Shown here one piece after another: positions 12,700-52,750 of a stretch of 64,000 bases of DNA. The position numbers were made by a program, and so were the translations under genes. Every line of letters starts with the position of its first letter. The first letter of the stretch is position 1. This stretch comes from Echinarachnius parma (lineage: Eukaryota; Echinodermata; Echinoidea; Clypeasteroida; Echinarachniidae). The stretch is from assembly GCA_037951105.1 (NCBI GenBank), contig JBAMJV010008234.1, positions 1-64,000 of the forward strand, in the 5' to 3' direction. The notes under the pieces were generated by a model. It saw only the letters and a list, made by a program, of their open reading frames with translations. It searched no databases and was not told the DNA's origin.

Positions 12700-12824
12700 C
12701 TATTGCATCTTGCAGGTGGAGCTCAGCTTGCGCACCCGGCTCGTTTTCTTCTGCTTGTCGGGTTCCTCCGATTCGGGGCTGGGCTCCTCCGAGCTGCACG
12801 GCTCGATCACGACCGGAGGGACAT
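12700..12824 (-). CDS. STK11: STK11 exon 9 (C-terminus with CAAX box), stop codon
   Basis: 125 coding nt from a CACGCAG acceptor to TAG at 12702-12700. It completes an Asp codon and encodes VPPVVIEPC, an acidic SSEEPSPESEEP stretch and RVRKLSSTCKMQ. Human ends KIRRLSACKQQ: the CxxQ farnesylation box and the basophilic RxLS site (human Ser428, PKA/RSK target) are both conserved. The entry phase, one base from exon 8, equals that of human exon 9. The exon is GC-rich compared with its surroundings. Confidence 0.94.
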
Positions 12825-13072
12825 CTGCGTGAACGAGACAAGAGAACAAAACAAAAATAATCAGTAATTGCTAGGACAAAAAAACATCAATAACTTTAAA
12901 ACTAAGGATATTTGAACAATTTTAATTTACTTTGACTCATATGTGTACCTGTACTATAGCAGAAGAGACATACATGTATGGTGACAATAAGAAAATACAA
13001 TTAAAAAGATACATTTACAGAACATCGTTCTGTTCAAAGTTTCCCTCAAATAGAAATATGATGACATAAATG

Positions 13073-13312
13073 TTACCCTGGGGTTCCAAATGAAAATCCG
13101 CCATTTTGTTTAATTATTGATTTATTTTTCAGGGCTGTACACTGGGGTACCAAAGAGTATGAAATTATTTTCGTTATGCTTTATTAACGTTCAAAAGGCT
13201 CTCTTTGCGGCCAGCGGCGTCCATGATTGCCTAGCGGTACGGTTGTACTTCGGGTGGACACAAGATGGCGCTACACAATGCAGGATACCGGGGTACAACG
13301 GTACCCCAGGGT
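13073..13312. mobile_element. Candidate inverted-repeat element in intron 8
   Basis: TACCCTGGGGTTCC at the left faces GGTACCCCAGGGTA at the right. The interior is unusually GC-rich for this window and carries further GGGGTAC copies. The insertion borders are uncertain. Confidence 0.5.
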
Positions 13313-13755
13313 ACTGCGCGTGTCATCATAATAAGCTCAAATATTCCATCTGGCTACAGGCACCTAACATGTTTGTTCACTTACAAGTACAAGAGAAAAA
13401 TTAAATTCATTATTATGTAAATCTCATCGAAAAACAAGCAAGAAATTTGCCAAAAAGCAGATCAAGTTACCTAGTGCAATTAAAATTTCCTAGGTTTTTT
13501 TCACATTGTGTTCATTCAGGCAAATAAATGTTATGTTTCAGGGCAAGTCAAATTTGAAAATTAATGATTTTACTAGCCCAAAGGGGCAAGTAGAAAAAAA
13601 GTTGCTGTGGAGGTTTGTTGCAAGAAGAGTAGAGATATATAAGATAACGAGGAATAATTAAATCTTCGGACAGCCGGGGACATACTGTACATTCTCTAGA
13701 AAAAAAGAAAAAAATTACTGAAAGGCAGACAATCTTTAATTTAAAAAAAACTTAC

Positions 13756-13955
13756 CTAGTGTCGGCCGGCCGCCGTACTGTTGCACGTCGTTATAGTACT
13801 CGTTAGAATTGTAGCTCCCGTCCTCGGAAGGGCAGGGGTTATACATGTCCTCCAGGTAGGGCACCATAGACATGCTTCCGACCTCGTCGCAGCTTTCTGG
13901 CACCAGGGGCAGGGGGACGGGGTCCCCAACTATGGGGTGTTTTTTCCTCACCCAT
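13756..13955 (-). CDS. STK11: STK11 exon 8 (kinase end and regulatory tail)
   Basis: 200 nt (human 188) with a TTTCAG acceptor and a GTAAGT donor. It encodes WVRKKHPIVGDPVPLPLV followed by a tail with MSMVPYLEDMYNPC and an Asn/Tyr-rich stretch. The human counterparts are WFRKKHP and MTVVPYLEDLHG. The serine in SMSMVPY takes the place of human Thr336, a known phosphorylation site; that equivalence is inferred by alignment. Two acceptor-side partial copies lie upstream (14188-14286 and 14040-14090). Confidence 0.94.
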
Positions 13956-14039
13956 CTGAAAAAAAGAGAAGAATATATAGATTGTAAATGTCCACTAGAT
14001 AGGGTATTCATGGTTGAAATTCCAACATCGTAGCTTCTT

Positions 14040-14090
14040 GTGGCAGCTTGCTCCAACCGTGGGGTTTATTTTGTCCTCACCCCTCTTCAA
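14040..14090 (-). pseudogene. Partial copy of exon 8, acceptor side (copy 2, short)
   Basis: A short degraded match, CCAACCGTGGGGTTTATTTT then GTCCTCACCCCTCTTC, to the first ~35 nt of exon 8 and its acceptor. It lies between the real exon and the longer copy. Confidence 0.6.
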
Positions 14091-14187
14091 AGGAGATGTT
14101 AATATTGTATTTAAAGGCCTGTTTTGATGTTCTAATATGGTGATTTTCATCCATTATATTTAATAAGGGTTGTACACTTCCTTTAGA

Positions 14188-14286
14188 AAGGACACCATAC
14201 TCATGCTTCCGACCTTGTCACAGCTGTCTGGTACCAGGGGGAGGGGGACAGGGTCTCAAACTATGGGGTGTTTTTTCCACACCCAG
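14188..14286 (-). pseudogene. Partial copy of exon 8, acceptor side (copy 1)
   Basis: Plus-strand CATGCTTCCGACCTTGTCAC, GGGGTGTTTTTTCCACACCC and the bases between match the first half of exon 8 with scattered substitutions. The acceptor AG is lost. It lies upstream of exon 8 in intron 7 and breaks off at the PYLED codons. Confidence 0.85.
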
Positions 14287-14464
14287 AGCAGAGTATTGCA
14301 AGTTTTACCTACAGTAGTATTTGTTTTTTAACTCTAACCATGGTGGGTTTTTTTAATATACATGTAAGATACAATTTGGTTTCTTCAGCCAAATGAATAA
14401 CTGATTGTGTCGCTATGTTGTTTGTGGGTGATGTTTCTTTTAATAATAATTTTGTTTTCTTTAA

Positions 14465-14896
14465 AGGGGACCACCAGGCAAAGGACAACACATTATTATA
14501 TGCTTTGGTACCGTTTTGTGATATCAAATAGATACCCAACATTTTGCAAAGGGTTGTGTAATTCATAAACAAAGCAATTAATTTCCATCACTTACGGAAC
14601 CACGGCTATCTCGTGGTTCCACACGGGCCAGGCAATTGCGAGTGCGCCAATGCAATTCACGCGTACGTCAATAGAATCCCGGATGATTCGTTCGCTCTGC
14701 ATAGAGCGCCGCTGGCTCTGCTCGCATAATAGTCTGCGCATTCAGACCGCATGACCGCATGGCTGAGAATGGTGATGCGTTTTCCAATTATATATTTTTT
14801 TCTGAAAACATATTTTTGTGAACTTATTGAAGGAATGGAATACTAAAGATGTTACCTTTCTATAAAAAGATTATTATTTTTGGGTGGTGGTACCCT
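14465..14896. mobile_element. TTAA-flanked MITE, family D, in intron 7
   Basis: Ends AGGGGACCACCAGGCAAAGG and (reverse complement of the right end) AGGGTACCACCACCCAAAAA with TTAA on both sides (14461-14464, 14897-14900). It holds an inner hairpin, GGAACCACG...CGTGGTTCC. Confidence 0.8.
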
Positions 14897-14977
14897 TTAA
14901 GTGATTCAGAGATTGTTTTTTGTTTGTTTTTTTCTTTCCTTTTTACATCACGTTTTCTTCTGCCAACGGATACTTAC

Positions 14978-15035
14978 ACATGTTCCTTGATTTGTTGCAC
15001 ACCCAGCCTATTGTCAGGGTCAATACACAGCATCC
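14978..15035 (-). CDS. STK11: STK11 exon 7 (end of kinase C-lobe)
   Basis: 58 nt, as in human exon 7, with a CTGCAG acceptor and a GTAAGT donor. It encodes GMLCIDPDNRLGVQQIKEH plus two bases of the next codon; human has GMLEYEPAKRFSIRQIRQH. The arginine (R of NRL) is the conserved kinase subdomain XI residue. No partial copies of this exon were seen. Confidence 0.95.
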
Positions 15036-15040
15036 CTGCA

Positions 15041-16480
15041 GAATAAAGACAAAACAACCAACAATATTTGAAAGCAATAAAATAAATAGTAATAATATAA
15101 TTCTTATACAGAACCGAGGTATGATGTCACATTCTTTCGTTATAACATATTACTCTTAATTTAGTTGTACATTTTATAAATGAAACGTGATGCAAGTGAA
15201 TAACATTCTAAGAACATTTAAACAAACGGTTCAAGATTTCACAGTGTTGCACTACTGGACAACCTGATTCATACATTATGTGTGTGTATGTGTGTGTATA
15301 CAACATGGGCACCTGTATATTGTTTACAGTATCAATTACTAATTGAACAAAACAACCTGGCCTTGGCACAAACCTGATGCCACAAACATGATGTAAGCCT
15401 AGCTCTTAATCCCTAGCTATCACTTCATTTGTAGCATGAAACCGCAGGGATATCCTGGATTACGAGGTTGCTTATATATCTAATGCGCTGTGTGGGTTTT
15501 TAATTTAATCCACGTAATACCATTTAATCATCTCAAATCACAATTGATCTTGTAAATTTGAAGAACACATATAATATACAGTGATTCAAAGTCATGTCTG
15601 AAGTGTCCCCCCCCCCCCAATAAATATGACCTCACATTCCCTTGTTATTTATAACAAACTAAAAGTAAATATAGTAATGGTTCTTAACAACTTGTCCTTT
15701 TGATAATGGGTTAGAGTTTGCCAATTGTTTTGTTTATCAACAGCTAGGTCACAATTGTTTTAATGTTGGTATTTTTTTATTTTTTCATTTTTTATATATT
15801 TTTTTTTGTTCTTCTTTGTTTGCTTGCCAAACATCGTTTATACTGTATAGCTATAGCAAAAAATAGCTATGACTTTACACTTCAATACTGATCTATAAAC
15901 CATAATTTGTAATTCAGCTTTTTAAAAAAGCTTACAGTGAAGGAAAAGGGAATAACCTTGGGTCAGCCATATGTTCACCGAAAAGCAAATCACAATTGGA
16001 ACAGATAGCTTCAATTTCAACATAATTGAACAACATAATAATGATCAGATTTCATCTATTATGCTCAATTCACGAGACTCTATTCCGTCCTCTGATGCCT
16101 TCTAAGTATTAAAAGCCTTTGGATGGGGTGGGGGGGGGGGGGGGGGTAGGGGATGGAAACCCAATCGCGCTCCAGGTTGCCATGGTAAATGATTCGTGCA
16201 CTGCATTTAATCATAATCATGGGAGGCCGTATACACCAGTACATGCCTCACTTTAATTCACTAAGTACGGTGGGTAGAGGGGTATTTTCCATGCATAATT
16301 CACTTCAAAACGGGTCCTTCTATTCCTTTCGCCCCATTAACTATTAAAAGTATCGTAGAATAATTCATTAAATTGCATGAGATACAGTCAGAATTGTGAT
16401 AGCAGGTTAAATCAACATCGGTGAAATTCCCCATCCACTAAAAAAAACACAAAAAAAACAAACAAATCGTTAAACGCCAT
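15041..16480. other. Intron 6, part without recognised feature
   Basis: AT-rich unique-looking sequence with a C-run at 15607-15618, a short TGTG tract near 15282-15298 and a G-run at 16129-16147. Nothing else recognised. Confidence 0.55.
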
Positions 16481-16489
16481 AGAGCAGTA

Positions 16490-17100
16490 TCGGGAAAGTT
16501 ACGGAAAACAATTCTGTTGGCCAAACGTATCAATCAACATGGTTGAAATAGTATAAGAGAGGGTTTATGTGGTAAAATCAGAACCATAACACAGTGCTCG
16601 AATTTAGCATAGGCCCGCTGGCCCAGGGCCACTAAAAATTAGCTCCAGGCCACATTCTACTGGCCCATTCGGGCCACCAAATTTAACAGAATTTGTTGTG
16701 TTTTTCTATGTTTAGGGCCACCAGATTTAGGTTTCGGGCCACTCAAAGTTGAACAATCTTGTTTTTACTTGCCCGACTGGGCCACAAGGCAAAAAGGTTA
16801 ATTTCTAGCATTGCATAACATCATAAAATGAAAAAATATAAGGAAAGTTCCATGCTGCGCCACTAAGATTGGACGCAAAGTTCACAGCTTGTTCCGGCCT
16901 TCCTCCCCAGCTTGGGTCTTGTAGCTAGCCGATAGAAAATGTACGCTGCATGGTTTGCGTGTGCTTCTTGGCGGTTTCTTGGCCCAATTTTTTGTTTTTG
17001 TTTTAATATATTATTTCACCTGGTCGGTGACAAAAGCATATTACATTTAATTTGTGTGTGTGTGTGAGGCGTTTCCAAATACTGCTATTTGATTTTAACA
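16490..17100. repeat. Dispersed repeat, with a GGCC-type repeat inserted (16598-16810)
   Basis: GTATCGGGAAAGT..., TGTGGTAAAATC and GGCGGTTTCTTGGCC recur at 20370-20470 and 21775-21800, suggesting two copies of one older repeat, each interrupted by a different insertion. The insert here runs from GTGCTCGAATTTAGC through repeated GGCCCA/GGGCCA blocks to TTTCTAGCATTG. Confidence 0.55.
16598..16810. repeat. GGCC-block dispersed repeat (copy 1)
   Basis: GCTCGAATTTAGC at one end, TTTCTAGCATT at the other, and alternating GGCCCA...GGGCCA words between. Relatives are at 27466-27755, 28015-28140, 54293-54568 and a fragment near 13540-13605. Confidence 0.65.
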
Positions 17101-17128
17101 AATAAATAGAAAATACATGACAAATCAC

Positions 17129-17180
17129 CTGCTAATAGGTCCGGTCGTCAGGAATTGTGTCGTACCCCCTTCCCCATCCC
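17129..17180 (-). pseudogene. Partial copy of exon 6, donor side (copy 2)
   Basis: A second, older donor-side copy. The plus strand keeps CACCTGCTAATAGGTC, then an internal deletion, then GGTCGTCAGGAATTGTGTCG and CCCCCTTCCCC. The minus-strand donor is GTGATTTG. The frame is not maintained. Confidence 0.78.
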
Positions 17181-17308
17181 ATCAAATTCTGCCCCCCCCC
17201 CCCTCCCCCCAACTTCTCTGGCCTCTTCCCACACTCCTCTTAGACGCAACCAATAAAATATATATTTTACCCCCCAAAAATGTAAAAAATCATTTTAAAG
17301 CAAATTAC

Positions 17309-17351
17309 CTGCTAATAGGTCTGAGAGTTGTGAGGGCAGGTCGTCAGGAAT
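17309..17351 (-). pseudogene. Partial copy of exon 6, donor side (copy 1)
   Basis: About 43 nt identical or nearly identical to the 3' end of exon 6 ([13 protein letters not shown] codons) with the same GTAATTTG donor, 86 nt below the end of the real exon. It stops at CGTCAGGAATACTCC on the plus strand. Confidence 0.88.
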
Positions 17352-17436
17352 ACTCCTCTTAGACGCAAGCAATAAAATATATGTTGACAACAAAACTGTT
17401 TAAAATCATAATTAATCAAAATACATCGCAAATTAC

Positions 17437-17564
17437 CTGCTAATAGGTCTGAGAGTTGTGGGGGCAGGTCGGCAGGAATGGTGTAGTCCCCCTTCCCGAT
17501 GTTCTCGAACAGTCTGTAGATGTTGTCCCCCTCGAAGGGGAATTTACCCGTTACAATATTAAAC
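17437..17564 (-). CDS. STK11: STK11 exon 6 (kinase C-lobe)
   Basis: 128 nt, as in human, with a CTGCAG acceptor and a GTAATT donor. After completing a Leu codon it encodes [25 protein letters not shown] and [18 protein letters not shown]; human has [25 protein letters not shown]. It is the most echoed exon: three acceptor-side copies upstream (17722-17770, 17943-17994, 18156-18198) and two donor-side copies downstream (17309-17351, 17129-17180). Confidence 0.96.
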
Positions 17565-17721
17565 CTGCAGAGAGGGGAGAAGAAAAAGTAGAAGAAGAAA
17601 AAAAAACATTATAATCTATCTTTATATTACGATGGTATTGGGGGAAACGGGTTCATAGTAAAATAACGATGAGGGCAAAAACGAAGAAGGAAGAAGATCA
17701 TGATGATGATAGTAATGATCT

Positions 17722-17770
17722 GAAGATGTCGTACCCCTCGAAGGGGAATTTACCCGTTACAATATTAAAC
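17722..17770 (-). pseudogene. Partial copy of exon 6, acceptor side (copy 1)
   Basis: Plus-strand CCTCGAAGGGGAATTTACCC and the following bases match exon 6 from its acceptor to the EGD codons, including an ATGCAG acceptor on the minus strand. Exon similarity ends shortly after and is replaced by GAT/GAA-rich repeat DNA. Confidence 0.88.
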
Positions 17771-17942
17771 CTGCATGAGAGGGGAGAACAAAAAAAAAAC
17801 ATTATAATTGATAGAAGTTATTGTCAATCTTTGTATTACAATGGCGTTGGGGGGAAACAGGATCATAGTGAAACAACGATGAGGGCAAAAACGAAGAAGG
17901 AAGATGATGATAGTGATGGTCTGAATATCAAGGGTAATCATC

Positions 17943-17994
17943 TGAAGATGTTGTACCACCTCAAAGGGGAATTTACCCGGATACAATATTAAAC
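17943..17994 (-). pseudogene. Partial copy of exon 6, acceptor side (copy 2)
   Basis: Same segment as copy 1, more diverged (CTCAAAGGGG, a GG insertion near ACCCGGATAC that breaks the frame), still with a CTGCAG acceptor. It is separated from copy 1 by about 220 nt that are also repeated (ATGAGGGCAAAAACGAAGAA). Confidence 0.85.
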
Positions 17995-18155
17995 CTGCAG
18001 AGAGAGGAGAACAAAAAGCAGAACAAGAAAAATCATTATAATTAATGTCAATCATTATACTACAAAATAAATCATAAAGCTATCAACGTTGATTAAAACA
18101 AAGAAGGAAGATGAAGATGATGAAGATGACGACGACGACGACGACGACAACGGCG

Positions 18156-18198
18156 ATCTGTAGATGGTGTCCCGCTCGACCCATTACACTATTAAACC
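18156..18198 (-). pseudogene. Partial copy of exon 6, acceptor side (copy 3, decayed)
   Basis: Only fragments of the exon 6 start remain: CTGTAGATGGTGTCCCGCTC, CCATTACACTATTAAACCTG on the plus strand. The acceptor has changed to CACAG. It is the outermost and most decayed of the three, giving a gradient of divergence away from the real exon. Confidence 0.7.
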
Positions 18199-18237
18199 TG
18201 TGAAGAGGGGAGAAACAAATATGCAGACAAATATATA

Positions 18238-18915
18238 TGTGAGTTCAATGCAAAACATATTTTAGAGTTTTATTTTCATGAATGCAAGCGTGAAAAGTAG
18301 CCCCTGAAAAAATTTATTTGAATTGTTTTCCCCTGAAACAAAACGTGTCAATTGATGTGTGAACGTTCAATGCAACACAAATTTTATAATAGTGTAATTT
18401 TCATGCACGCGAGCGTGAAAAGTAGCCCCTGGAATAATAAATTGTAATTGTTTTCCCCCGAAACAAAACGTGTCAATTGATCAAAGTGTGTCTGTGTGAA
18501 CGTTCAATGCAACACAAATTTTATAGTGTAATTTTCATGCATGCAAGTTTGAAAAGTAGCCCCTGGAATAATAAATAAATTGTAATTGTTTTCCCCCCGA
18601 AACAAAAAACGTGTCAATTGATCAAAGTGTGTCTGTGTGAACGTTCAATGCAACACAAATTTTATAAAAGTGTAATTTTCATGCATGCAAGCGTGAAAAG
18701 TAGCCCCTGAAAATATAAATTGTAATTGTTTTCCCTCGAAACAAAACGTGTCAATGGATCAAAGTGTGTCTGTGTTAACGTTCAATGCAACACAAATTTT
18801 ATAGTGTCATTTGCATGCATGCAAGCGTGAAATCAAAAGTAGCCCCTGAAAAAAATAAAATTGTAATTGTTTTCCCACGAAACAAAACGTGTCAATTGAT
18901 GATACCAAGTGTGAA
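18238..18915. repeat. Tandem array in intron 5, ~120-140-bp units, 5 copies
   Basis: Units share GTTCAATGCAACACAAATTT, CATGCAAGCGTGAAAAGTAG, CCCCTG and AAACAAAACGTGTCAATTGA. TTCAATGCAA recurs near 18245, 18367, 18503, 18643 and 18781. It directly abuts the exon 6 partial copies. Confidence 0.93.
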
Positions 18916-19648
18916 CGCACACCAAACGTCCAGGGTAGTTGCTGCCTGCAGAGAAACCAGACATCTGTGCTCTGCATTACGCCCAGGTACACAAATACAT
19001 CTTTATTGGCTGACTTTCAAAACAATCAATAATCATTTGGAGGCACAATACCACCTTTGTATGAACATGTACATGTACATGTATTGTGCACATTAATGAA
19101 ACATACTTATTAGCAATGTACGTATGTACGTCCAATACAATACAAATGTTCAATCTAAACAATGCTCTTCCTGGACAACATTTTTAGTGAAAGAAAAAGT
19201 AGAAAAGAGGATAATTTTAGAAAATCTGTTTGAGTCAATTAAAGCCATTTGGAATTTGCTGTATTCTTTTCACTTTGGGCCAGCAAAAATGTTTGAAATT
19301 AATATTTTGGCAACTAGATTAATAACTACAAGTAAAATAGACATTTTTTACAATAAACTGTCAATGTCATTTCGGGGCTAAAAATGTTTGCTTTGGGGGC
19401 GAAAGAAAGAAAGAAACAAAATCCGAGTGAAAATCATTTTACTTCATCCTCTTTTCGTTTTCGGCGGAATACATTACCGACATATAACCAGAATGGCCAA
19501 TTTAGATTCCACTATCCACAAATTTGAGAGGAAATTATTTTACATAACATGCACGTCCCGGCCACTAGCGAAAGAGGAAAATTAGTTTGGAGCAACGTGG
19601 GCGTTCACTAAATGTATGTACACATGTATGATTTCAGTTGCCCTTTAA

Positions 19649-20009
19649 AGGGATCTAGTAACTTTGTTCACATGTGAAAAAAGTGATGAATAGTTGATAT
19701 CTAATATGTCCACAGGGTATTGTGTGAAAATTTCAAGTCAAATGGACGTTATATGGCCGAGTAATGAGCAAAAATGCAAAGTGATGTTCACAAACTCATT
19801 GCACTCACTTTGTACATGGTTTTCGCGATCCGTTGGGATTATTTAACATCTGAACACTTCAATCGTAAATATCTTTTTAACGAAAGGGAAATTTTAAAAA
19901 CCGAAACCTGTCCCATGATTTGATCGTTAATACGAATACACCAAGGTATGAGGGAACCGCTAGAATTCCAATTGGATTTGGAGGATTTGGACAATGTTAC
20001 TAAGTCCCT
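19649..20009. mobile_element. TTAA-flanked MITE, family B (copy 1)
   Basis: Ends AGGGATCTAGTAACTTTGTT and (reverse complement of the right end) AGGGACTTAGTAACATTGTC between TTAA sites (19645-19648, 20010-20013). The internal TATGGCCGAGTAATGAGCAA is shared with the copy at 24557-24860. Confidence 0.87.
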
Positions 20010-20571
20010 TTAAATACCCAGGCCAGGCAGCCAGGCAAGCAGGCAGGAGAGGCAGCCGCATTACCGATTAGCTTGCTGCACCTGCATCCATTCTCTGTTT
20101 TCCCCATCTCGTTATGTACCCATCTCCCTTCTCTTTCTTAGACACACACACACACACACAACAGGCTTTTATCACATTACAGCTAGCTAGCCAGCTAGCT
20201 AGTAGTACCGACATCACACACTGCTTCTTCTGATTCTAGTCATACATTATCTAGCTCAAACTCAAAGCAAGCTATAAATAAACATTACACAATGCTCCTA
20301 CTTGTATTAAGTCACCCTGCTCTCAGACAAGGGCATCTTCTCTAAAGGTACACATGGTTAAAGCCCAAGTCCAGTTTCGGGAAAGTAGCCGAATAAATCT
20401 ATATTGATTAATATTGTTGAATATGTATTGAAATAGGGCTTGTGTGGTAAAATCCAAACCTAAGCATCGTTAAATACAGAAATATCGGAAGAAATCAAAT
20501 ATCCGCCTGTGAAATTCATAAATCCACCACTCGTTCAGACCTGTCAGCGCCGCTAGCGCTGGGGGAGATAT

Positions 20572-24552: not shown

Positions 24553-24556
24553 TTAA

Positions 24557-29336: not shown

Positions 29337-29414
29337 GGGATTCCAACGGGATTCGAACCCGAGACCTCCGGATTGCTAGACCGGTGCTCTTACCGACTGA
29401 GCTATAGAAAACCC
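29337..29414 (-). tRNA. tRNA-like sequence (AGC anticodon position), probably a pseudogene
   Basis: The minus strand has a good D arm (GCTCAGTCGGTAAGAGC), an anticodon stem-loop CCGG(T)-CTAGCAA-TCCGG with AGC in the anticodon position, and box B GGTTCGAATCC. The acceptor stem pairs imperfectly. The whole thing sits in a 118-bp direct repeat, which argues for a tRNA-derived repeat rather than a working tRNA-Ala gene. Confidence 0.5.
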
Positions 29415-29627
29415 TATGACGGCATTCGTCCCAAAAACCCCTTAATTTTCATTGCTCGTGAGGTCAGAAGCTATTATAAACCTGGCATAAACCCGAAGGA
29501 TAGAAATCAACTTGGGGATATATGCGAGGGATCAACGAAGCGATGCAGCTTTTTTTAATAATTAATTCAAACATATAGAGAAACTGACCAGAAATATATA
29601 ATGTGATTAAAAATGAGCAAAGAAAAT

Positions 29628-29705
29628 GGGATTCCAACGGTATTCGAACCCGAGACCTCCGGATTGCTAGACCGGTGCTCTTACCGACTGAGCTATAGAA
29701 AACCC
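29628..29705 (-). tRNA. tRNA-like sequence, second copy
   Basis: Nearly identical to the copy 291 bp earlier; box B is changed to GGTTCGAATAC. The 118-bp surroundings (29600-29716 versus 29309-29426) are the same apart from one or two bases, so the duplication is recent. Confidence 0.5.
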
Positions 29706-39575: not shown

Positions 39576-39588
39576 CACTATAGGCAGT

Positions 39589-39705: not shown

Positions 39706-40408
39706 ATCAGCTTATAAATGTGTTTTGATATTGGCTAATATACATTGTAAGTAAGAGATGGTGAATATTGAAGAGGAACGTCAAATAAAAGGTTACAAAT
39801 CTTGGGGAAAGTGGCCGCAGCAGTATTGGAAACTTTTTTTTCAACAGGGACTTTATGATTTACTTCTTCACTTGTAGACTGGTTTTTCTTATGTTTTCCT
39901 TATGTTCGATCGACAGTCTTAGTCCAGTACCAACGCCAAAATCGGTCAACTCAAATCCAAGTTGAACTCAACCGAGCACGGGCGTAGCGAGTTACGTAAT
40001 ACCTATTCAACTGGGGGGGATGAATGAATAGATCATCCCCCCCACTTGAATGGGTATCAATGTCATGTCTAGCGACTGTAGCAAACAATGGGAGAACATC
40101 AAAGTTCCATGATGTTTTGTTTCGGGCAAAATGGAGCCGAATTAAAAGTATCCTACTGGTCCATTCCAAACTTGGTCCGCATCATTTAATTTCCTGCTAG
40201 TACCTTCCGGATGTCAAACGGATAGGAAACGGAAGGAGAATCGGTGCAGTGGGGCTAGGTCATTAGATCACAAATTGGACTACTACAGTACTTAGTGTAG
40301 CTAGGGGAAGGGGTCAACTGGGCCTATGTGATACACATGAAAATAAATAGAAATAAATAAGAAATAATATATAAGATGTGTAATATATATGCAAAACAAT
40401 GTACTTAC

Positions 40409-40482
40409 AAAGTGACCCCAGAGGACCAAATGTCCACTTTGAACCCTGAGAATACATCCTGTCCGTTGGCGATCTCTGGGGT
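40409..40482 (-). pseudogene. Partial copy of exon 5, donor side
   Basis: About 74 nt matching the 3' half of exon 5 ([11 protein letters not shown] to SGVTL) with three or four base changes and an intact GTAAGT donor, located downstream of the real exon, 143 nt away from the real exon end. It lacks the acceptor half. Confidence 0.88.
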
Positions 40483-40624
40483 CTAATAATATACCAGTCT
40501 ATCGTTAGAAAGTCTTTAAAATTCTAATTTCAGGCTAATTACAGGTGCTCCATCAATAATTATATACAATCAATACAAAAAATAATTAAAAAACAAAATG
40601 AGGAGAAAGAGACGAAATACTTAC

Positions 40625-40761
40625 AAAGTGACCCCGGAGGACCAGATGTCGACTTTGAACCCTGAGAATACATCCTGTCCGTTGGCGATCTCTGGGGGCT
40701 GGAAGGCCGGCGAGCCCTGGCTCGTCCGACAGGCGTCATCTTTGGTGAACTGGTCTAGTAG
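40625..40761 (-). CDS. STK11: STK11 exon 5 (activation segment, APE region, helix F)
   Basis: 137 nt, as in human. The acceptor is CATAG and the donor GTAAGT, ending in phase 2. It encodes [10 protein letters not shown], then [18 protein letters not shown], then [18 protein letters not shown]. Human LKB1 has ALHPFAADDT followed by an identical [18 protein letters not shown] block. PPE is the LKB1 form of the APE motif and DIWS carries the conserved helix F aspartate. Copies of its acceptor half lie upstream (40877-40932, and a 13-nt trace at 40828-40840) and of its donor half downstream (40409-40482). Confidence 0.96.
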
Positions 40762-40876: not shown

Positions 40877-40932
40877 GATCTGCGAGACCTGGCTCGTCAG
40901 ACACGCGTCATCTTCGGTAAACTGGTCTAGTA
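40877..40932 (-). pseudogene. Partial copy of exon 5, acceptor side
   Basis: About 56 nt reading LLDQFTEDDACLTSQVS in the exon 5 frame, upstream of the real exon. The acceptor dinucleotide is destroyed: the minus strand reads CGGG before CTACTAG where the real exon has CATAG. It breaks off inside the activation segment. It therefore looks like a decayed duplicate rather than an alternative exon. Confidence 0.85.
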
Positions 40933-41689
40933 GCCCGATTCAAAAACAAAAGAAGAACTGGGGGGGGAACTGTATCAATAGTTTACTAACTTTAACTGGG
41001 CTGAAAAAAATAACTTCAGAGGAAAAAGGCACTGTCAATAAACAGAAAGTCAATAATTCACAAAAATACTTTCAAATGTATTTTATAAAATACAAGGAAG
41101 AGATTTAAACAAACAAAAATGCATTTTCACAGAAATTCTGAGAAATAAAAATAATCTTTCAGTTGGTTTGCAATTGAAATTTTCATAAAATTAAGAACCA
41201 AAAGGCCATTTTAATTGTGAAACTAAATTTGTTAAGACTTTCTTTAGAGCAAAAATCATATAAAAATCATGTCTTACAAATTACATTGTTTTGGTATACA
41301 AAAAGTATGTCCATTTTCTTTCACCAATTTTGATACATCTGTACAGTTACATTGTATTGTAAGTTATAAAGCTGTAGGCCCTTGATATACATGTATTAAA
41401 GAAATCAAGAAACATATAATATGCTTGAAAACTACAAACACCGACATTTTATTCAAGTTTTTGTAAAATACAATGGTCAAAACGTCAGCCTGCATAAACA
41501 TAAATTGTAGTTATGACCCACGACTGGGAGCTCTTGTAAAGGATCGTTGAAGCGGTGGGCTTATATCTTGGTTGCAAATCGCCCCAGGCCCTTGATTTCT
41601 ATAATTGAGAATAATGACTGCGTACTTCGGCCAATTAATCATCATTAGTGTGGCAGGTAATATTTATAGACAGCAATTATTCCTTGGTG

Positions 41690-44244: not shown

Positions 44245-44275
<31 letters not shown>

Positions 44276-44286: not shown

Positions 44287-45670
44287 TTAAAAGATAACTA
44301 CTAGCTATGGACATGTTTGTATCTTGTAATAATATATCCAGTCAGAGAAGCTATAAATCATTATCTATAAGAGTGACATAGTTTTGATCCTCCTCACCCT
44401 AAGGTAATCTCTCAAACAGAACTTGACATTTACAGTAGTACCCTTAATTAAATAAAATTGATGAGACATCAAAAATTGGTCTTAAGACAAGTTCCAGGGG
44501 GGGGGGGGGGAGAGTAATCTTTTTAATTGTTCAGGCAACAAGATATATCCAATAAAACCACACACACACAAATAAAGAATTTCTGATCGGGAAGAACATT
44601 GTGGAGCAACAAAACAGAACCTGCAGTCATTTCTTTGTAAATAAGACGAGTAATAAATCCAGGCGTTGTGAGGCTACAAACATAAATAGAACAGAAAACG
44701 ACCGTGTCTGACAGAGTGATTGATGAAAATATAACCCCCCTTACCGAGAAAGTACCCCTGTTGAGAAAGAGAAGGGCGTAAGTCACTTTTTGTACTTTGG
44801 AGATAATCATGGTTAAATTTTGTTAGCTAAGTAGAAGCCAACTGAAACTTTTATTTTTTAATTTGATGAATGTATTTTCCAAAATTAGGCAAAACTTATT
44901 ATCTGAAAAAATTCTGCACCACATCTAGAGGCTCGGTACTGCAAGATGGTATGCGGAACTCAGTTTAGTCATAAATCGACTTAGCGCCCCTATCGCTCTC
45001 ACCCGACCAGGTGTAATTTAGATGCAGAACTACCTTCACCCTCTACCTCCCTCCACGCTATAAAGTAACCCAAAGTTCATGCAATTTAGGGCAAGGCTTT
45101 TCATATTCATGTCACACTCTTCAATGCACTTGAACTTAAAGTACATTTAATGTATGCATGCATGCGTTTCAAAACTGCAACATTTTATGGCAAGGAAAAA
45201 TACAAAGTTATTTTTGAAGGGTTACTTTTCAATCTCGCCTTCAAGAAAATAGCACTCTAAAATATGTTTTGCGTTGAACTTGATGCAAATTTATGGGCGT
45301 CTTTTGGTATTTTTAGGGGCTCTTTTGGGCCTTTCTGGGGCTAAATTGTCCTGAACTCCTGTGTATTTGTTTTCACTAATTCATCACTAAAAAAAAGGGA
45401 CAATTTTGTGAAGAAGAATGTTGCTCGATTTGCCGTCCTTCCAACAACGAACTAGAGCTCTGTTGCCACTCCCGTAAGTTCATGTTGTTTTTTACCAATT
45501 GTGTAATTTCTATCATGCACAATTGTATAGGCATGTATGCATGCATTTCAGACTGACCACATTGAATACATAATGTACAATACTCCCACTCAGATTAATT
45601 CCTGGACATTGCTTTTCAACCAATGTATTACACCTCAGCCCCATTCATACATATTCCTGTTGGTTCTTAC

Positions 45671-45755
45671 CTCTGCAACACCAACGTCTGATATCTTGAG
45701 CACACCACCAGTTGTTAACAGCAGGTTGCATGGTTTGATGTTCTTATGAACAAAC
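45671..45755 (-). pseudogene. Partial copy of exon 4, donor side (copy 2)
   Basis: Second donor-side copy, extending slightly further (to the HKDIKP region, with GTTCTTATGAAC on the plus strand replacing GTCCTTGTGCAC). The GTAAGA donor is intact. No acceptor or 5' half of the exon is present. Flanks shared with copy 1 and with the real exon include CAACCAATGTATTACAC and CAGCCCCATTCATACAT. Confidence 0.85.
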
Positions 45756-45866
45756 AAATAGCTGTACACCAAATTATATAGTAGTCCCACTCCTTTAAAC
45801 TCATGTTGGTTTCAACCAATGTATTACACTTCAGCCCCATACATACATAATAATGTAAGTTCTTAC

Positions 45867-45937
45867 CTCTGCAACACCAAAGTCTGATATCTTGAGCACA
45901 CCACCAGTTGTTAGAAGCAGGTTGCTTGGTTTGATCA
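45867..45937 (-). pseudogene. Partial copy of exon 4, donor side (copy 1)
   Basis: About 70 nt matching the 3' half of exon 4 (SNLL to DFGVAE) with an intact minus-strand donor GTAAGA. It is diverged at a few bases (TTAGAAGCAGG for TTACAAGCAGG) and breaks off where the real exon continues with the KDIKP codons. It is part of three tandem units covering about 45590-46140. Confidence 0.88.
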
Positions 45938-45999
45938 TCTAATGAACAAACAAATAGCTGTACACCAAATTATATAGTAGTCCCACTCCTTTAAACTCA

Positions 46000-46269
<270 letters not shown>

Positions 46270-46331
46270 TCACAGAATTTGAAGAAAAAAATTGCTTATT
46301 GTTTTCAATATCCACCTCCCCCGCCTCCAAG

Positions 46332-46366
46332 CGGGGTGTGGGGGGGGGGGGGGGGGGGGGGGGGTG
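46332..46366. repeat. G-run in intron 3
   Basis: About 27 consecutive G after GCGGGGTGT. Quadruplex-capable on the plus strand. Confidence 0.95.
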
Positions 46367-49162
46367 GCAGTAGAATTCTAGAAATAGAATCTGAACAAAT
46401 GTGTATCATGCAACATTGTATGCTGATATTCAATTCAGGGCTATTACTGGCGAGAACATGGTTATTTATTTACATTATGAAAATGCAATACTGTAATATC
46501 AAAGATATCTGATTTGTTATATGAAAGAATATTAGAACAGTTATTGTTGTAACTCAGGGAACTTCTACAAATACAACCATTGAGTGATTTCAAGTACGGT
46601 GCTGGTGTTGGTGTTGGTGTTAGCAGCCCATATTTGCTGTTAATCCGAGCTCTAACACCAGCGTTCGGATTAACGACGATACCGATACCAAGTATCGATA
46701 GCCTAACACCAGCATATCGATAGCTCGACGCCAATAAATCCGCCCGAAAAGCACAAAATTGTTGTATATTTCACGTAAAAAAAGCCCGAAATCAATGTAC
46801 TCTGGCAAAATATACCATGGACGTGAGAGTATTTATGAAGAACTCTCATTTCTAACATGTACAATTTTACAATAAGCCTTATTTTTTTCAAAAACGTTAT
46901 TTTTTTAGCGTTTCGGTATGATATTTGCAAGATTTGCGTGACGGCCTGTGGCTGTGCCATGTCGAATGGCTATGTGCACAATTCAATTGTTTTGAGCTCA
47001 AACTTTCGTTCCATTATTTATTCGTAATTGTTCTTAACTAATTGGGACAAGATCTCAATTTAGTAAGTGTAATCTAGGCTTTTATATTCTAAAGTATAGA
47101 CTATTCTCAAACAAAATGACCGGTTCATAAAATTGATCTATTACGTTGACACTTTCACTCATATCTTACTTTTCCTGTTAAGTATTACTGGAGAAAAATA
47201 AGAAAAAAAACAACAACCAAAGTATTGTTTTGAATTTAATTTTAAGTAGTATTATGATCACGGTTTTATCTCAAAAACATTTTCCATATGCAAAACGTAA
47301 CAAAGAACTAGTCCTAGAGGAGAGTAGCCTACAGCCTAGATCTAAGTATAAGGTTAGGTAATTTAACAGGTGACTAATAATTTTAAAGTAGACCTAAGAA
47401 AAAAAAAACCCGTATCTTACTATCTTAGTATAAATAATTAGAGGATTATGTTATATTCTGATCTTAATTAAGGGTATTTCATTTTATCTTTTGTTTATTG
47501 ACCGTGATCATTGTTGAAGTCTACTGATCGACCGACACTGCTTGAAGCATCAATTAGCCAGATCTTATTTAATAATCATACCATTATTAATATTAGTTTA
47601 TAATGTAAATATTGGCACTGCCATTATTATTAGTCTAATTGTTTGCTAAATTTGTATTTTACAGATTTGAAACTTTGGATATAAAGATATGTCACATATT
47701 TTAAAAAGGAAACAAGGGTTAATTTAGAGAACTTATAGTTATATTATAGTAAAACTAAAAATAAGTTGAACGAACAAGTTATTACTAGCAGCAGCAATAG
47801 CACAGGTAGCCCCAGTCATACGAGCTAGCTCTGCATAGCCTCCACGGTTCTACCTAGGGCTCGGGGCTAGGCCTAGACTGAGGTTTATGACTTAACCTAA
47901 ACTAGACCTTCTGGAGTGTAATTCTCTACTCATGTCCTAGTCTCTAGATACTAGCTCTAGTCTAGAGCTTAGGCTAGCACTTCGATCGATTGTACTAATT
48001 CCTATTAAAATTATAAAAAGTATCATTCTAATCATAAATCTAGGGCGGTGTATAAACTTGTCTTGCTATTATAGTATTGCTAATTTTTTTAATCTTACAT
48101 AAGTACGAGCAAAAGGTAGTACTAGGCTTACTACAATACAAGATATGCCTAGATGTCTAGATTTAGGCCGCACTTTAAAGTTGACTAGCCTAGCCCTAGC
48201 CTCTAGTACTACCTCTAGGTCTGGCTATGCCGGCTGCAAGCGTCATAAATAGTTACTCCGAATTCTAGTTTAGTAACAATTTGTACTAGTTTGACCTACA
48301 CTAGAGTAGAGACAGAGTAAGGCAATTGTCTAGTCTCTATTTGAGTGTGAATTTATTAAACCAGCGAAATGATAGGGCTAGGCCAGGCCCCAGGCCAGGC
48401 TATATTGTATTTTTACTTTAGGATTTAAGCTATTAACATTTCTGCTACAGTACAGGGAAAATTCACAATTTATATTATTACCATACTACTACTATACTAT
48501 TTAGCTTAGTTATAAAAACTATTATAATTTACTGAACTAATAAAATAGCTGCAACACCACTACCAATAACCAAGTACCGTCCATAGAGTGCCTCAGACTC
48601 AGTAAAACAGACAACAAAATTAAACAAAATCATTTGGTACATGTCTAACTTTCTAGAGAGTCTATTAAGTCGAATTTCTAAGCCGATCAAATCTTGATTA
48701 TCATATCAATCATGACATTAAATTTAAAATGAAGTGATGAAGTCCTAGTCTCTAGACTCGAGTCTAGACCTCATTCAGAGTCAGACTCAGTCAGACTCAG
48801 AGTCAGTCCTACTCTAAAATCTAAATCGAGTTGAAGTCTAAGGTAAGTAATATCGATATAATTCTAATTTACAAGTGACTTACATTACATGACACAGTCC
48901 GTCTATTTTCAGCAAATTGATGATAGAAAATCCAGTTGGAAAAGTAAATGATACTGCTAGCACATTATTATTGGTATTGATCCACGTCAATATGCACTTG
49001 TTTACTATTTACGTTAACGATAACGATTACCGTACGTTATGGAATTGCAATTCAAGTTGTGCATTAATGTTTACGTTTATTTTGAATTTCGAGTACACAA
49101 TTACAATTACAATACCCTAATTAATTAGCATAAATTAGACTCGAGATCAGACCTTGTATGGA

Positions 49163-49508
49163 TTTATCAACTCACATAATTATCCAGGGCATACTTTCCA
49201 TAACAAATTTATCCTGAGATAAATTGCGTTTATCATAAGATGTAGCGAATACGATTAATTGTTGTTTTTCATCATGTATGTGGTACTAATATTGTCTACT
49301 GCTATATTGCCAATACTACTTCATGTAATACAAAAATCATTAGTAATAGCAGCATGAAGTAGTATTACGTAGTTGACAATATTAGTACCACATACATGAT
49401 GAAAAACAACAATTAATCGTATTCGCTACATCTTATGATAAACGCAATTTATCTCAGGGTAAATTTGTTATGGAAAGTATGCCCTGGATAATTATGTGAG
49501 TTGATAAA
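49163..49508. repeat. Long inverted repeat, ~160-bp arms
   Basis: Arms 49163-49325 and 49353-49508 pair almost throughout (TTTATCAACTCACATAATTA with TAATTATGTGAGTTGATAAA; ATTAATTGTTGTTTTTCATC with its complement), with a ~27-nt loop. Confidence 0.93.
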
Positions 49509-49620
49509 GCTTTTACGAGTTTTGTATAGTATTTCTATTTATCATCATTTGTTGTACGATATATTATATCGTACAACAAATGATGATAAATAGAAATACT
49601 ATACAAAACTCGTAAAAGCT
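49508..49620. repeat. Perfect palindrome, 56-bp arms, 1-nt centre
   Basis: AGCTTTTACGAGTTTTGTAT...ATACAAAACTCGTAAAAGCT, every position pairing around the T at 49564. It begins exactly where the preceding long inverted repeat ends. Confidence 0.97.
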
Positions 49621-50577
49621 GTGATATAATGTCACGGTTTGCAGTTCATAGTCATACTAACTAATTTGTAGATCTATCTGTCCTCTTTTAATTTGCAACC
49701 CACAATTAAACACCTATCATGTAAGTAGAATTTGATAAATGTACATCAAAACATTTTAAAATCAGTAAACTATCCTTCTTTACAATACCGCCAGCTGATC
49801 ATTGACCTCTAAAATCGCTAACACCGAACTTGAAATGACGAGTTTCTTAATCCCTAGGGTTTGGTGTTAGTGAATAGGGAAATTGCATGCAAATTGTTAA
49901 CACCGACTGCGGAGCTCGGTTCAGCAGACGACGCTCGACACCAACTACCGGATGCGGAAGTTGGAATGCCGTCACGGATCCGAGGTCAAATCTCTAACAC
50001 CGAGGCATTTCAAGTACGGTGCTAGAGGCTGGTGTTAGTGTTGCGATAACACCAACACCAACACCAGCACCGTACTTGAAATCACCCATTGTCTTACACC
50101 ATTACTCCGCAAAAAACAAATTACTTAATTTTCTGTGTTCTTTTTAAAGCTCCCAATGGATCATGCTAAATTTGTACTGCTAATGTTCATTACCTCATCT
50201 CTCTCTTCTTTACATGTAGTGCTTATGAATTGGTAATAGTCCCTAATGGCTCGGAAAAATGATGAAAATTGGAATTGGTAAGTCACAGTTGAACTGCTAG
50301 CAATATTACTAAAGTCTATGAATAATGGAGATTTAGTCATTCGCTCATAAATGATGATTTAGATGTAGATGTAATGCAAATCTCAACAACATACATGTAC
50401 ATAGGTTTTGTAGTGTGCATTCGTGGGAAAAGGTTTATTGAAGATGATGAATAAAGAAACAGATTTGGAGTTTTAAATAGGACGAAAAGTAGAATAATAA
50501 AAGGTGTTATGACTCAGAAGAACCTATCAAAGACAGGCATCTGTACTTATACTGTGAACTAAAAAAACAAATCACAG

Positions 50578-50658
50578 TTAATGTTTTTTAAATATGTCTT
50601 GAAAGTAAAACAATACTGTTTTACTTTCAAGACCTATTTAAAGACATACATTGTTAAT
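50578..50658. repeat. Short fold-back, ~38-bp arms
   Basis: GTCTTGAAAGTAAAACA-ATAC-TGTTTTACTTTCAAGAC with flanking imperfect pairing TTAATG.../...CATTGTTAA. Confidence 0.88.
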
Positions 50659-50790
50659 AGCAGAATAGACATTGAATAGACAATGTGGCACAATGGAAAC
50701 AAATAGAAAAACACTTTGCAAATGAATGTCTGCTCTCCCCTTTGCAAAGCCTCGTTAAAAAAATAAGAAAATAATGGACGAATGGACAGT

Positions 50791-50990
50791 CAGTGGTGTA
50801 AGCCAGGAATTCTGCAAAGGGGGGGGGGGGGGGGGAGCTCCAACAATTAAAAAAACAAAAATCCCCCTTCTACCAGCTAACAAGCAATCAAGCCAATCAA
50901 GTTCAAAACAAATTTGCCTGAGGATGAGGGGGCGCCTCAGGACCAGAAGACCCCCCCCCCCCTCCCTCATACACACTCGCTACGCCACTG
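50791..50990. mobile_element. hAT-like MITE, 200 bp, with 8-bp target duplication
   Basis: Termini CAGTGGTGTAAGCC and (reverse complement of the right end) CAGTGGCGTAGCGAG; flanks TGGACAGT (50783-50790) and TGGGCAGT (50991-50998). A G-run lies near the left end and a C-run near the right end. Confidence 0.85.
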
Positions 50991-51264
50991 TGGGCAGTGG
51001 GCAGTAGTGTATAAAGATGGGAGCATTCAGGCAAGTGCATGCAGGGAAGGGTAATCAAATTAATGGCCCAGGGGAGGGCAGCCAATGAGAGAGAAAGACA
51101 AAAACACTGCCCTCGGATGTTACTTGTTGTACCATGCATGTATCATGATACAAGAAAAAAAGCTGCATCACTTTGGTGATCCCTCGCACCTTATCCTTTG
51201 GGTTTGTGTCCTTCTGAGTTCTGACCATCACAAGCATTGTAAAGGGACAAACAAACAGCACAAG

Positions 51265-51343
51265 GGCTTTCCGGCTCAGTTGGTAGAGCACTGGTTGAGC
51301 CAACTTTAGCAATCACGAGGCATCAGGTTCGAATCCCGACCTA
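51265..51343 (+). repeat. tRNA-derived SINE-like head (copy 1)
   Basis: The D-arm/box A region CGGCTCAGTTGGTAGAGCAC and a perfect box B GGTTCGAATCC (51326-51336) are correctly ordered. The anticodon arm does not fold well, so a functional tRNA is unlikely. Confidence 0.6.
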
Positions 51344-51447
51344 TTTCCTAAATGCTAATTTTCATTTATAAAAAGTAAAAGATTTGCATATTCTTTCTTC
51401 ATCAAATTAATAATCGTGCTCCATAGTTTTAAGCCATGGTTTACATT

Positions 51448-51539
51448 TAACCCATTCGGAACTGGTCTCAACAATATGCGGGCTTGGTTTTATGTAGAAT
51501 ACAATGTTGTAGCAAAATCAGTCAGTCCTTAACGGGTTA
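51448..51539. mobile_element. Very short TTAACCC inverted-repeat element
   Basis: TTTAACCCATTCGG faces TTAACGGGTTAA; about 92 bp, lying between the two tRNA-like heads. May be a MITE remnant. Confidence 0.5.
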
Positions 51540-51540
51540 A

Positions 51541-51614
51541 GGAGCTTTCAAGCTCAGTGGTTAAAGCACTGGTCTAGAAATCCTACAGTCTCGGGTTCAT
51601 ATCCTAACATGTGC
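51541..51614 (+). repeat. tRNA-derived SINE-like head (copy 2)
   Basis: AAGCTCAGTGGTTAAAGCACTGGTCTAGAAATCC with a degraded box B (GGTTCATATCC). Diverged relative of the copy at 51265. Confidence 0.5.
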
Positions 51615-51689
51615 GGATTCCCAATTTTTCTGTGCTAATTGTTATTTTTCAAATCTCATTTTCATTACAAGATCAAGTTGAAAACTTAC

Positions 51690-51779
51690 CCATGAGCTTG
51701 CCAGGCGGGGAACTTCTTGGCAGTGGCTGAATCCAGCATGTCCTGCAGGCCACTCACGCAATACTCCATGAACAGATAC
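51690..51779 (-). CDS. STK11: STK11 exon 3 (kinase hinge region)
   Basis: 90 nt, the same as human exon 3. It completes the split Met codon, then encodes [18 protein letters not shown] followed by [12 protein letters not shown]; human has YMVMEYCVCGMQEMLDS and FPVCQAHG. MEYC is the hinge that contacts adenine. The 3' splice site is a U12 AC and the donor is an ordinary GTAAGT, leaving phase 2. A 69-nt near-identical copy of its 5' part lies at 51905-51973 inside the preceding intron. Confidence 0.95.
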
Positions 51780-52361
51780 GTGTGAACAGTCAAGGAACAA
51801 ATCAGGCATTTTATAATAATAGTAATAACAACAATAATGATAATGATAATATTAATAATAATAATAATAATCATAATAATATTAACCATAATCATAATAA
51901 TAATAACTTCTTGGCAGTGGCTGAATCCAGCATGTCCTGCAGACCACTCACGCAATACTCCATGAACAGATACGTGTGAACAGTCAAGGAATTGAACCAG
52001 ACATTTTATATTATCAAAATAAATAAATAAATAAATAAATAATACTAATACTAATAACGACAAGTATGATCTTGGTCTTATTGGTCTTGTCCATGATCAA
52101 CACCCCCCCCCCCTCCCTGCCCCCGCTAACACAACTAAACAAGTGTTCTCTGCTTCTGCATGATTGGTTTGGCCACGAACACTTGTGAATCTTGTCATTT
52201 CATCTATAAAAAATTATGTGTCATAAAAGAGTACTGTAGCTAGAAAAAAGACAGGACAAAGGATGATCATTGAGTTATATACAATAAATATCCTTGATAA
52301 GCAGTAATTGGGAAATCTATAAATTTTCACAAATCTATTCTATAATGTTCCAAAAGGATAT
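51780..52361 (-). other. Intron 2, U12-type AT-AC intron
   Basis: On the minus strand the intron starts ATATCCTTTT (52361-52352) and ends TTCCTTGACTGTTCACAC (to 51780). TTCCTTGAC matches the U12 branch-point consensus (TTCCTTRAY) and the terminal dinucleotide is AC, with no AG in the preceding 30 nt. Using AT and AC as borders gives exons 2 and 3 of exactly 84 and 90 nt and an intact KMYLF join. Human STK11 intron 2 is established as a U12 AT-AC intron at the same codon. The intron also holds a second copy of the 3' splice region at 51905-52006, a TAA/ATAA-rich low-complexity stretch (51810-51905, 52015-52050) and a C-run (52104-52113). Confidence 0.93.
51905..52006 (-). pseudogene. Partial copy of exon 3 with duplicated U12 branch point and AC acceptor
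   Basis: Offset by 194 nt from the true exon. Exon-like bases 51973-51905 match the first 69 nt of exon 3 with one synonymous change (GGC to GGT). Just upstream on the minus strand, TTCCTTGACTGTTCACAC is identical to the functional U12 3' end. The copy stops inside the exon and runs into an ATT-rich tract, so it has no donor site. It is clearly a tandem duplication, and recent given the near identity. Whether the acceptor is ever used cannot be told from sequence. Confidence 0.9.
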
Positions 52362-52445
52362 ATTTTTTGCTTCTCGTCATTCTGTAGGACGTCGACGAGC
52401 TGAATGATGTTGGGATGGTGAAGTCTCTTCAGAAGCTGGATCTCC
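52362..52445 (-). CDS. STK11: STK11 exon 2 (kinase N-lobe, C-helix)
   Basis: 84 nt, the same length as human exon 2. After a TTGCAG acceptor and one nucleotide completing a codon, it encodes [19 protein letters not shown] followed by LQNDEKQK; human LKB1 reads EIQLLRRLRHKNVIQLVDV. The first E is the C-helix glutamate that salt-bridges the catalytic lysine encoded in the missing exon 1. The exon ends two bases into the next Met codon (AT). The following bases on the minus strand are ATATCCTTTT, a perfect U12-type AT-AC 5' splice site, so this exon is not followed by GT. An acceptor-side copy of this exon lies upstream at 52708-52750. Confidence 0.95.
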
Positions 52446-52579
52446 CTGCAACAACAAACAAAGAAAAAAAGGAGGAAATTATATTTAAATACAATTAATA
52501 AACTTTTTTTTTTTTAAATGATGCTCATTTTGATTTATTTGATAAAACTAGGCATGCATTACAACTGACAATAAACACA

Positions 52580-52662
52580 TTTTATTGTCAAGTGCTTAGA
52601 GATGATTATCAATCATATTAGGCGCTATATAAACCGCAAACATTATTTTTTTTTTTTTTTGC
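52580..52662 (+). repeat. SINE-type 3' tail with T-run
   Basis: GTGCTTAGAGATGATTATCA, then GGCGCTATATAAA and a T-run of about 14. The CGCTATATAAA tail followed by a homopolymer is typical of deuterostome SINE/LINE 3' ends. It sits between exon 2 and its partial copy. Confidence 0.45.
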
Positions 52663-52707
52663 AGTAGATGGTGGCAAAATTGGTGTCAAAGAAGAGGAAA
52701 AGCAAAG

Positions 52708-52750
52708 AATGATGTTGGGATGAAAAAGCCTCTTTAGATGCTGAATCTTC
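52708..52750 (-). pseudogene. Partial copy of exon 2, acceptor side
   Basis: On the minus strand GTTGCAG is followed by a ~43-nt diverged copy of the exon 2 start. In the exon 2 frame it reads KIQHLKRLFHPNII, against [14 protein letters not shown] in the real exon. It lies upstream of the real exon, keeps an apparent AG acceptor and a polypyrimidine-like tract, and breaks off before the donor half. It is older than the exon 3 copy, judging by divergence. Confidence 0.85.

Follow-up and report, generated by a model that had tools for sequence, protein, structure and literature searches.

Half-exon copies in the STK11 gene of Echinarachnius parma and short tandem duplication across its genome

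Why should six exons of one gene be accompanied by fragments of themselves, each on a predictable side of the intact exon? The question is raised by the STK11 (LKB1) gene of the echinoid Echinarachnius parma, exons 2-9 of which (human numbering) lie on the minus strand between 52445 and 12700 of a stretch of 64,000 nucleotides, here called the window (assembly GCA_037951105.1, contig JBAMJV010008234.1, positions 1 to 64,000 of the forward strand). A sequence-only reading had noted about 14 partial copies with strict polarity around exons 2, 3, 4, 5, 6 and 8, and had explained them by tandem-array growth that captured exon edges, by selection against complete duplications and by a process that may act genome-wide. 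We hold with high confidence that short direct tandem duplications throughout the genome leave such half exons, on a side of the intact exon which is dictated by geometry, and the copies in STK11 are one gene's share of this genome-wide duplication.

Partial exon copies and their polarity in STK11

Aligning each of exons 2-9 by blastn to both strands of the whole window (cut-off E<1e-4) and scoring every match by half and side gave 12 non-self partial copies, seven of them acceptor halves upstream and five donor halves downstream of exons 2-6 and 8, with E-values of 1e-5 to 1e-39, which exclude chance. All 12 lie on the gene's own strand, none being inverted, and start no farther than about 650 bp from the exon concerned; all obey the rule of side and half, and none holds a complete exon. 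The six exons, the polarity and the lack of a complete copy are thus as the sequence-only reading had claimed, and its copies are real, their number being 12, or 13 with a weak one; its span of 12700..52750 is slightly larger, as the exon 2 array extends to 52780. The splice edge is crossed by 11 of the 12 alignments, and the same 11 include intron flank. Other exon matches in the window (E 0.048 to 4.2) are scattered on both strands at chance level, and exons 7 and 9 gave no copy in this search.

The polarity, which had been offered as evidence, adds nothing beyond tandem duplication, because a direct duplication with one breakpoint inside an exon forces this order. When a head-to-tail doubling takes in the end of an intron and the beginning of the next exon, the first copy stops in the exon and the second runs into the intact rest, which leaves the acceptor half upstream; in the mirror case, a segment running from exon into intron leaves a donor half downstream. 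Among 66,323 single-edge cases from simulated random duplications none broke the rule; the simulation, being built on the same geometry, illustrates the point and does not test it. What the rule does exclude is dispersed copies, as abutting units also show. That dispersed or retrotransposed exon pieces were placed with a functional polarity has a negligible probability: all 12 copies are direct and near, 11 carry intron flank, and the window holds no other significant match, the genome beyond it having been searched with the exon-4 and exon-6 stretches only.

The exons were located by tblastn with a human STK11 query, and their splice sites were read from the letters; one open frame runs through exons 3-9 in the expected order, and exon 1 gave no match in the window by low-threshold tblastn. 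All features named here are on the minus strand. Exon 2 (52362..52445; tblastn, splice sites) has one acceptor-half copy upstream at 52707..52780, which comprises exon nucleotides 1-44 and intron flank (E=9e-13, 83%) and forms the tandem pair 52402-52471/52707-52780. The acceptor-half copy upstream of exon 3 (51690..51779; tblastn), at 51905..52057, is 98.8% identical over 86 bp (E=2e-39), with the pair 51711-51864/51905-52057; for this exon a start at 51781 was rejected, as it breaks the frame with exon 2, which by eye 51779 restores. The intron between them looks like a U12-type AT-AC intron, its 5' end reading ATATCCTTTT (donor at 52361-52352) and its 3' end TTCCTTGACTGTTCACAC, with the branch point TTCCTTGAC and an AC acceptor at 51797-51780; such end motifs are marks of U12-type AT-AC introns, and intron 2 of human STK11 is of this type too. 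The exon 3 array has duplicated this branch point and acceptor intact, at 51991-51974.

Exons 4, 5, 6 and 8 were placed by tblastn, splice sites and blastn. Downstream of exon 4 (46063..46195) lie two donor halves with intact GT, at 45859..45935 (E=3e-34) and 45656..45751 (E=2e-36). Exon 5 (40625..40761) has an acceptor half upstream, in which AG is changed to GG (40882..40995, E=8e-16), and a donor half with intact GT downstream (40402..40484, E=9e-34). The largest array surrounds exon 6 (17437..17564), with three acceptor halves upstream, all with intact AG, at 17719..17786 (E=1e-24), 17941..18009 (E=1e-19) and, most diverged, 18157..18212 (E=1e-7, 73%), and two donor halves downstream, at 17300..17351 (E=1e-19) and, diverged, 17114..17177 (E=1.5e-5, 69%); the units 17233-17351 and 17352-17479 adjoin without a gap. 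Exon 8 (13756..13955) has an acceptor-half copy upstream at 14167..14285 (E=2e-32), which contains an in-frame stop codon and spans exon nucleotides 2-120, so that the acceptor itself lies outside the alignment; a possible second copy of the exon start at 14053..14086 reaches E=0.04 only. The exons without copies are exon 7 at 14978..15035 (low-threshold tblastn, blastn) and exon 9, whose coding part is at 12700..12824 (splice sites, blastn).

Two further features of the introns can be mentioned here. A short GTC/ATC-rich stretch at about 18097-18169, near the exon 6 array, has at least 43 further matches in the assembly, and intron 5 carries on the minus strand, at 29337-29703, two tRNA-Ala (AGC) genes as a direct repeat with a spacing of 291 bp and 99% identity over 119 bp.

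Tandem duplication beyond STK11 and the reality of the copies

In the window, 50 direct and no inverted near pairs were found (offset <=700, length >=50), and the direct ones, which form 26 clusters, make up 16.4% of its bases and 21.8% of the gene, in agreement with the proposal that the growth of tandem arrays captured exon edges. Similar coverage was seen in kinase loci elsewhere in the assembly, with 16.0% and 192 direct versus 14 inverted near pairs in the 20 longer ones (8-10 kb each, 198 kb), and 20.3% and 66 direct versus one inverted in the 20 shorter ones. Across the 262 kb sampled, the smallest offset of 106 clusters, not all of them independent as some loci are haplotype pairs, has a median of 172 bp and falls within 100-220 bp in 75; the arrays at exons have a median offset of 189 bp. 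Unit lengths drop above about 220 bp, with 2 of the 106 clusters in 220-260 bp and, in the window and loci L004-L023, 11 clusters at 200-220 bp versus one at 220-240 bp. A limit of about 220 bp is near the size of the nucleosome repeat. The exons of kinase, myosin and kinesin genes carry half copies on the same side and with the same geometry as STK11, which bears out the suggestion of a genome-wide process. In the window alone the enrichment of edges is too weak by itself, since tandem copies include 7 of the 16 edges of STK11, where circular shifts give means of 2.6 (whole window, P=0.043) and 3.5 (gene span, P=0.12); exon 8 is absent from this count, for which a copy had to contain the very base at the edge.

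Other simple repeats of the window are a near-perfect ACGC repeat of 302 bp at 3843-4144 and long poly-C/poly-G tracts at 1731-1809, 3140-3174 and 59892-59930.

Copies of this kind could also be produced by an assembly that sets alleles or collapsed repeats side by side, and this assembly does contain many haplotype-like pairs, as well as a locus (L008) with 4099 N which may be gaps. Ten locus pairs, with an identity of 95-100% in the exon and of 88-96% along long alignments, are either haplotypes or very recent paralogues. Arrays are carried by seven of them, of which four differ in copy number (2 versus 4, 3 versus 2, 4 versus 5 and 1 versus 2), one in spacing (one copy each at a different distance) and two are equal. 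The exon-6 stretch of STK11 (17200-18220) holds three of the acceptor halves and one of the donor halves. It has a counterpart of about equal length on a second contig, with 1016 of 1021 bases aligned at 81%, an identity at which this contig may be either an allele or a paralogue. Because the paired loci share arrays, often at different copy number, and because the exon-6 stretch recurs on a second contig, an assembly error is very improbable. Furthermore, the window is free of N, and the exon parts of 20 of 24 copies differ by more than 5% from their exon (range 1.4-21%), as against 0-5% between paired loci; the differences in introns, 12.8% in copies versus 4-12% in pairs, do not discriminate.

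These 24 copies, which have at least 20 aligned bases on each side of the edge and leave out kinesin, differ from the original by 9.3% in the exon part and 12.8% in the intron part, a lower divergence being expected of the exon part, where changes would accumulate in the copy alone. Of 35 edge-spanning copies, 31 have kept the splice dinucleotide (18 of 20 at acceptors and 13 of 15 at donors), which gives no sign of selection destroying decoy sites, because divergence of this extent would by chance spare about three quarters of them.

Direct tandem duplications with units of mostly 100-220 bp very probably arise genome-wide, expand to a few copies and decay, and whenever one breakpoint falls inside an exon a non-functional half comes to lie beside the intact exon. 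Because the exon itself stays intact, the halves can remain in the introns as debris that carries decoy splice sites, and the open frame suggests that normal splicing of the exon goes on. Direct support for this course of events comes from the tandem arrangement, its occurrence in many genes and in both members of haplotype-like pairs, the divergence of the copies and the acceptor excess in the sample which is described below. As to the mechanism, the scarcity of units longer than about 220 bp, and this alone, suggests a local replication error such as slippage or misjoined flaps, which might create tandem duplications at the scale of Okazaki fragments and nucleosomes, and the arrays could then grow and shrink by unequal exchange.

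Some observations weigh against this account. Of 718 random intron points, 81 have a near inverted match of any length, hence some near repeats are not direct; the exon-4 stretch of STK11 met no second contig in the genome search; the exon part is less diverged than the intron part in only 16 of the 24 copies; and local replication error with unequal exchange, which would be the best-supported mechanism, is observed in its size range and tandem form alone.

Acceptor edges, donor edges and complete copies

While the side of a copy follows from geometry, its preference for one end of the exon does not, and it was unexpected. The survey comprised 65 exons with 59 acceptor and 59 donor edges, those of STK11 and others taken from the best candidates of own-genome profile searches for kinase, myosin head and kinesin (40, 12 and 10 loci) with one member per pair; they are families and not random exons, some from one gene, and their splice edges were assigned by a simple matrix and by inspection. 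Dropped were L019, L023, L029, L027, L038, L043, L042, L041 and L017 as second pair members, L051.0 as a near copy of L048, L014.0 as identical to L013, L010 with unsettled splice edges, and profile matches that are copies themselves (second matches in L018, L019, L022 and L043). The upstream match of L035, where the profile match overran the donor, was counted as intronic, and upstream copies which stop short of the acceptor in the alignment ('int') were retained by direction.

An upstream copy was found at 27 of 59 acceptor edges versus a downstream copy at 9 of 59 donor edges (Fisher p=0.0006), and 31 of the 65 exons have at least one array; sorted by direction and without kinesin, arrays lie upstream of 25 exons and downstream of 8. 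These edge counts reach 420 bp, and the estimate of complete copies given below had 28 acceptor arrays, the extra one being L052 at 559 bp. Local intron control points 300-650 bp away, up to three per edge and not independent, gave 37/225 and 31/225 (about 14-16%), and 718 points placed at random in STK11 and the longer loci gave 14.9% and 16.9%. All 37 upstream copies at acceptor edges have their inferred unit start in the intron, in a count without kinesin exons in which 8 alignments stop where the 100-nt query ends. The excess persists without STK11, which had been chosen for its copies (22/51 acceptor versus 6/52 donor), and under stricter cuts of length and E-value (p=0.0016 to 0.0054). 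An earlier, direction-blind tally (27/50 acceptors, 14/50 donors, p=0.014) was replaced, as the 100-nt query spans both halves of short exons. Copies thus favour exon starts, weakly so among young arrays, and the earlier account of the pattern, sound as to tandem capture, had missed this bias.

A detection or sampling effect, in which constrained exon sequence stays recognisable for longer or the choice of families creates the excess, is an unlikely but not a slight alternative. The excess shrinks at an identity of at least 85% (10/59 versus 5/59, p=0.27, not significant; against local controls p=0.05). By source, myosin gives most of the contrast (7/13 acceptor versus 0/14 donor edges), with 3/10 versus 1/10 in kinesin, the profile table of which alone holds by eye two acceptor and two donor cases, and 5/8 versus 3/7 in STK11; because the contrast leans on myosin exons, this alternative gains weight. 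Against it, kinase exons alone give 12/28 versus 5/28, and donor edges, equally constrained, are yet at background (9/59 versus 31/225).

A hotspot at the polypyrimidine tract was considered and rejected. Antisense pseudo-acceptors have an upstream copy in 8 of 45 cases, like random points (107/718, p=0.67). On the gene strand, intronic pseudo-acceptors, which may include unrecognised real exons, have one in 29 of 109 cases, more than random points (p=0.003) and fewer than real acceptors (p=0.01), and a partial effect of sequence on acceptor-side duplication is possible.

The acceptor excess might stem from the selective removal of donor-half decoys, from a mutational bias acting locally where exons begin, or from both. 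Removal is slightly favoured over a mutational hotspot, as the margin over controls widens when less identical pairs are counted (25/59 versus 31/225 for all pairs of at least 40 bp, 10/59 versus 18/225 at an identity of at least 85%), a difference to which exon sequence that stays recognisable for longer would also contribute. That acceptor DNA is preferentially duplicated, or donor-side duplications are purged, and that nearly half of the exons consequently stand beside decoy acceptor halves, is a tentative reading to which we give a little less than an even chance.

The other selective proposal, that complete exon duplications are removed, has gained a similar standing, somewhat short of probable. 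No complete copy was seen where 4.1 were expected beside 33 single-edge arrays in the larger set (P=0.02), and none versus 3.1 in STK11 (P=0.07), so that the absence itself, as claimed, holds and is marginally unexpected, which is suggestive only, and its statistical support is weak. The expectation depends on uniform placement and on unit lengths observed in the same data, the power is low because the length of most survey exons is close to that of a unit (median 197 nt, n=43), and the polarity itself is uninformative about such selection.

Among the surveyed exons, a NEK-like kinase exon (L032, coding orientation 1455) and a myosin exon (L055, 1031) have donors that read GTATCCTT and are possibly U12-type.

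Significance and comparison with known systems

If the acceptor bias is genome-wide, it would help to separate a mutational from a selective origin of exon-edge duplications. In that case it would also provide many natural decoy splice sites, including the copied U12-type acceptor of STK11 intron 2, as a probe of how the real site is chosen and of the origin of introns. Should the tentative reading of the acceptor excess be true, such halves would constitute a standing supply of near-ready acceptors from which introns could be gained or exons shifted, and would test in vivo by what means intact decoys are passed over by the spliceosome.

Retrocopies, which lack intron flank, differ from the copies described here, in which intron flank is aligned in 35 edge-spanning cases, 11 of them from STK11. 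Ordinary intronic minisatellites are likewise few-copy, head-to-tail arrays in introns, but the present arrays include exon edges. Intron gain by tandem duplication has been described across an intron-exon boundary in potato (PMC4974935) and within coding sequence in Drosophila (PMC2891723). The duplication at an exon boundary is shared with the potato case, whereas STK11 has no new intron, with its human exon order and the open frame of exons 3-9.

In their structure, the arrays of STK11 and of the survey match the 'mirages' of amphioxus. Mirages reportedly leave normal splicing undisturbed, and in STK11 the open frame may point the same way. In amphioxus Adh3, mirages reportedly have units of 10-72 bp, shorter than the units here, and are said to be somatically unstable. 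Two papers describe mirages in Adh3, the globin genes BflGb6 and BflGb9, TnC and PGBD5, with units of 150-160 bp in the globins, a copy number that differs between haplotypes (BflGb6) and AG/GT often kept (PMC3087553, PMC3902484). Among the literature matches listed, with subscription papers mostly outside their scope, none names mirages or boundary duplications in echinoderms, and as far as these searches show the novelty lies in the group of the host, in the abundance and in the bias towards acceptors. The mitochondrial letters of the assembly likewise indicate an echinoderm, probably an echinoid or holothuroid: the contig with cox1 (a Pfam match) carries on one strand 16S-like motifs, cox1, trnR and frames that by eye look like nad4L and cox2, and echinoids are described as departing from the basal vertebrate order solely through shifts of 16S and nad4l (PMC9339218). 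As in amphioxus, the repeat unit spans the exon-intron boundary, both 5' and 3' exon boundaries are affected and, if the pairs are haplotypes, copy number differs in 4 of 7 array-bearing pairs and spacing in one more, a difference that comes from the survey pairs, the exon-6 stretch of STK11 being of about equal length on the second contig. Unlike the amphioxus mirages, the present ones occur in an echinoderm, at 31 of 65 sampled exons and with a threefold preference for acceptor over donor edges.

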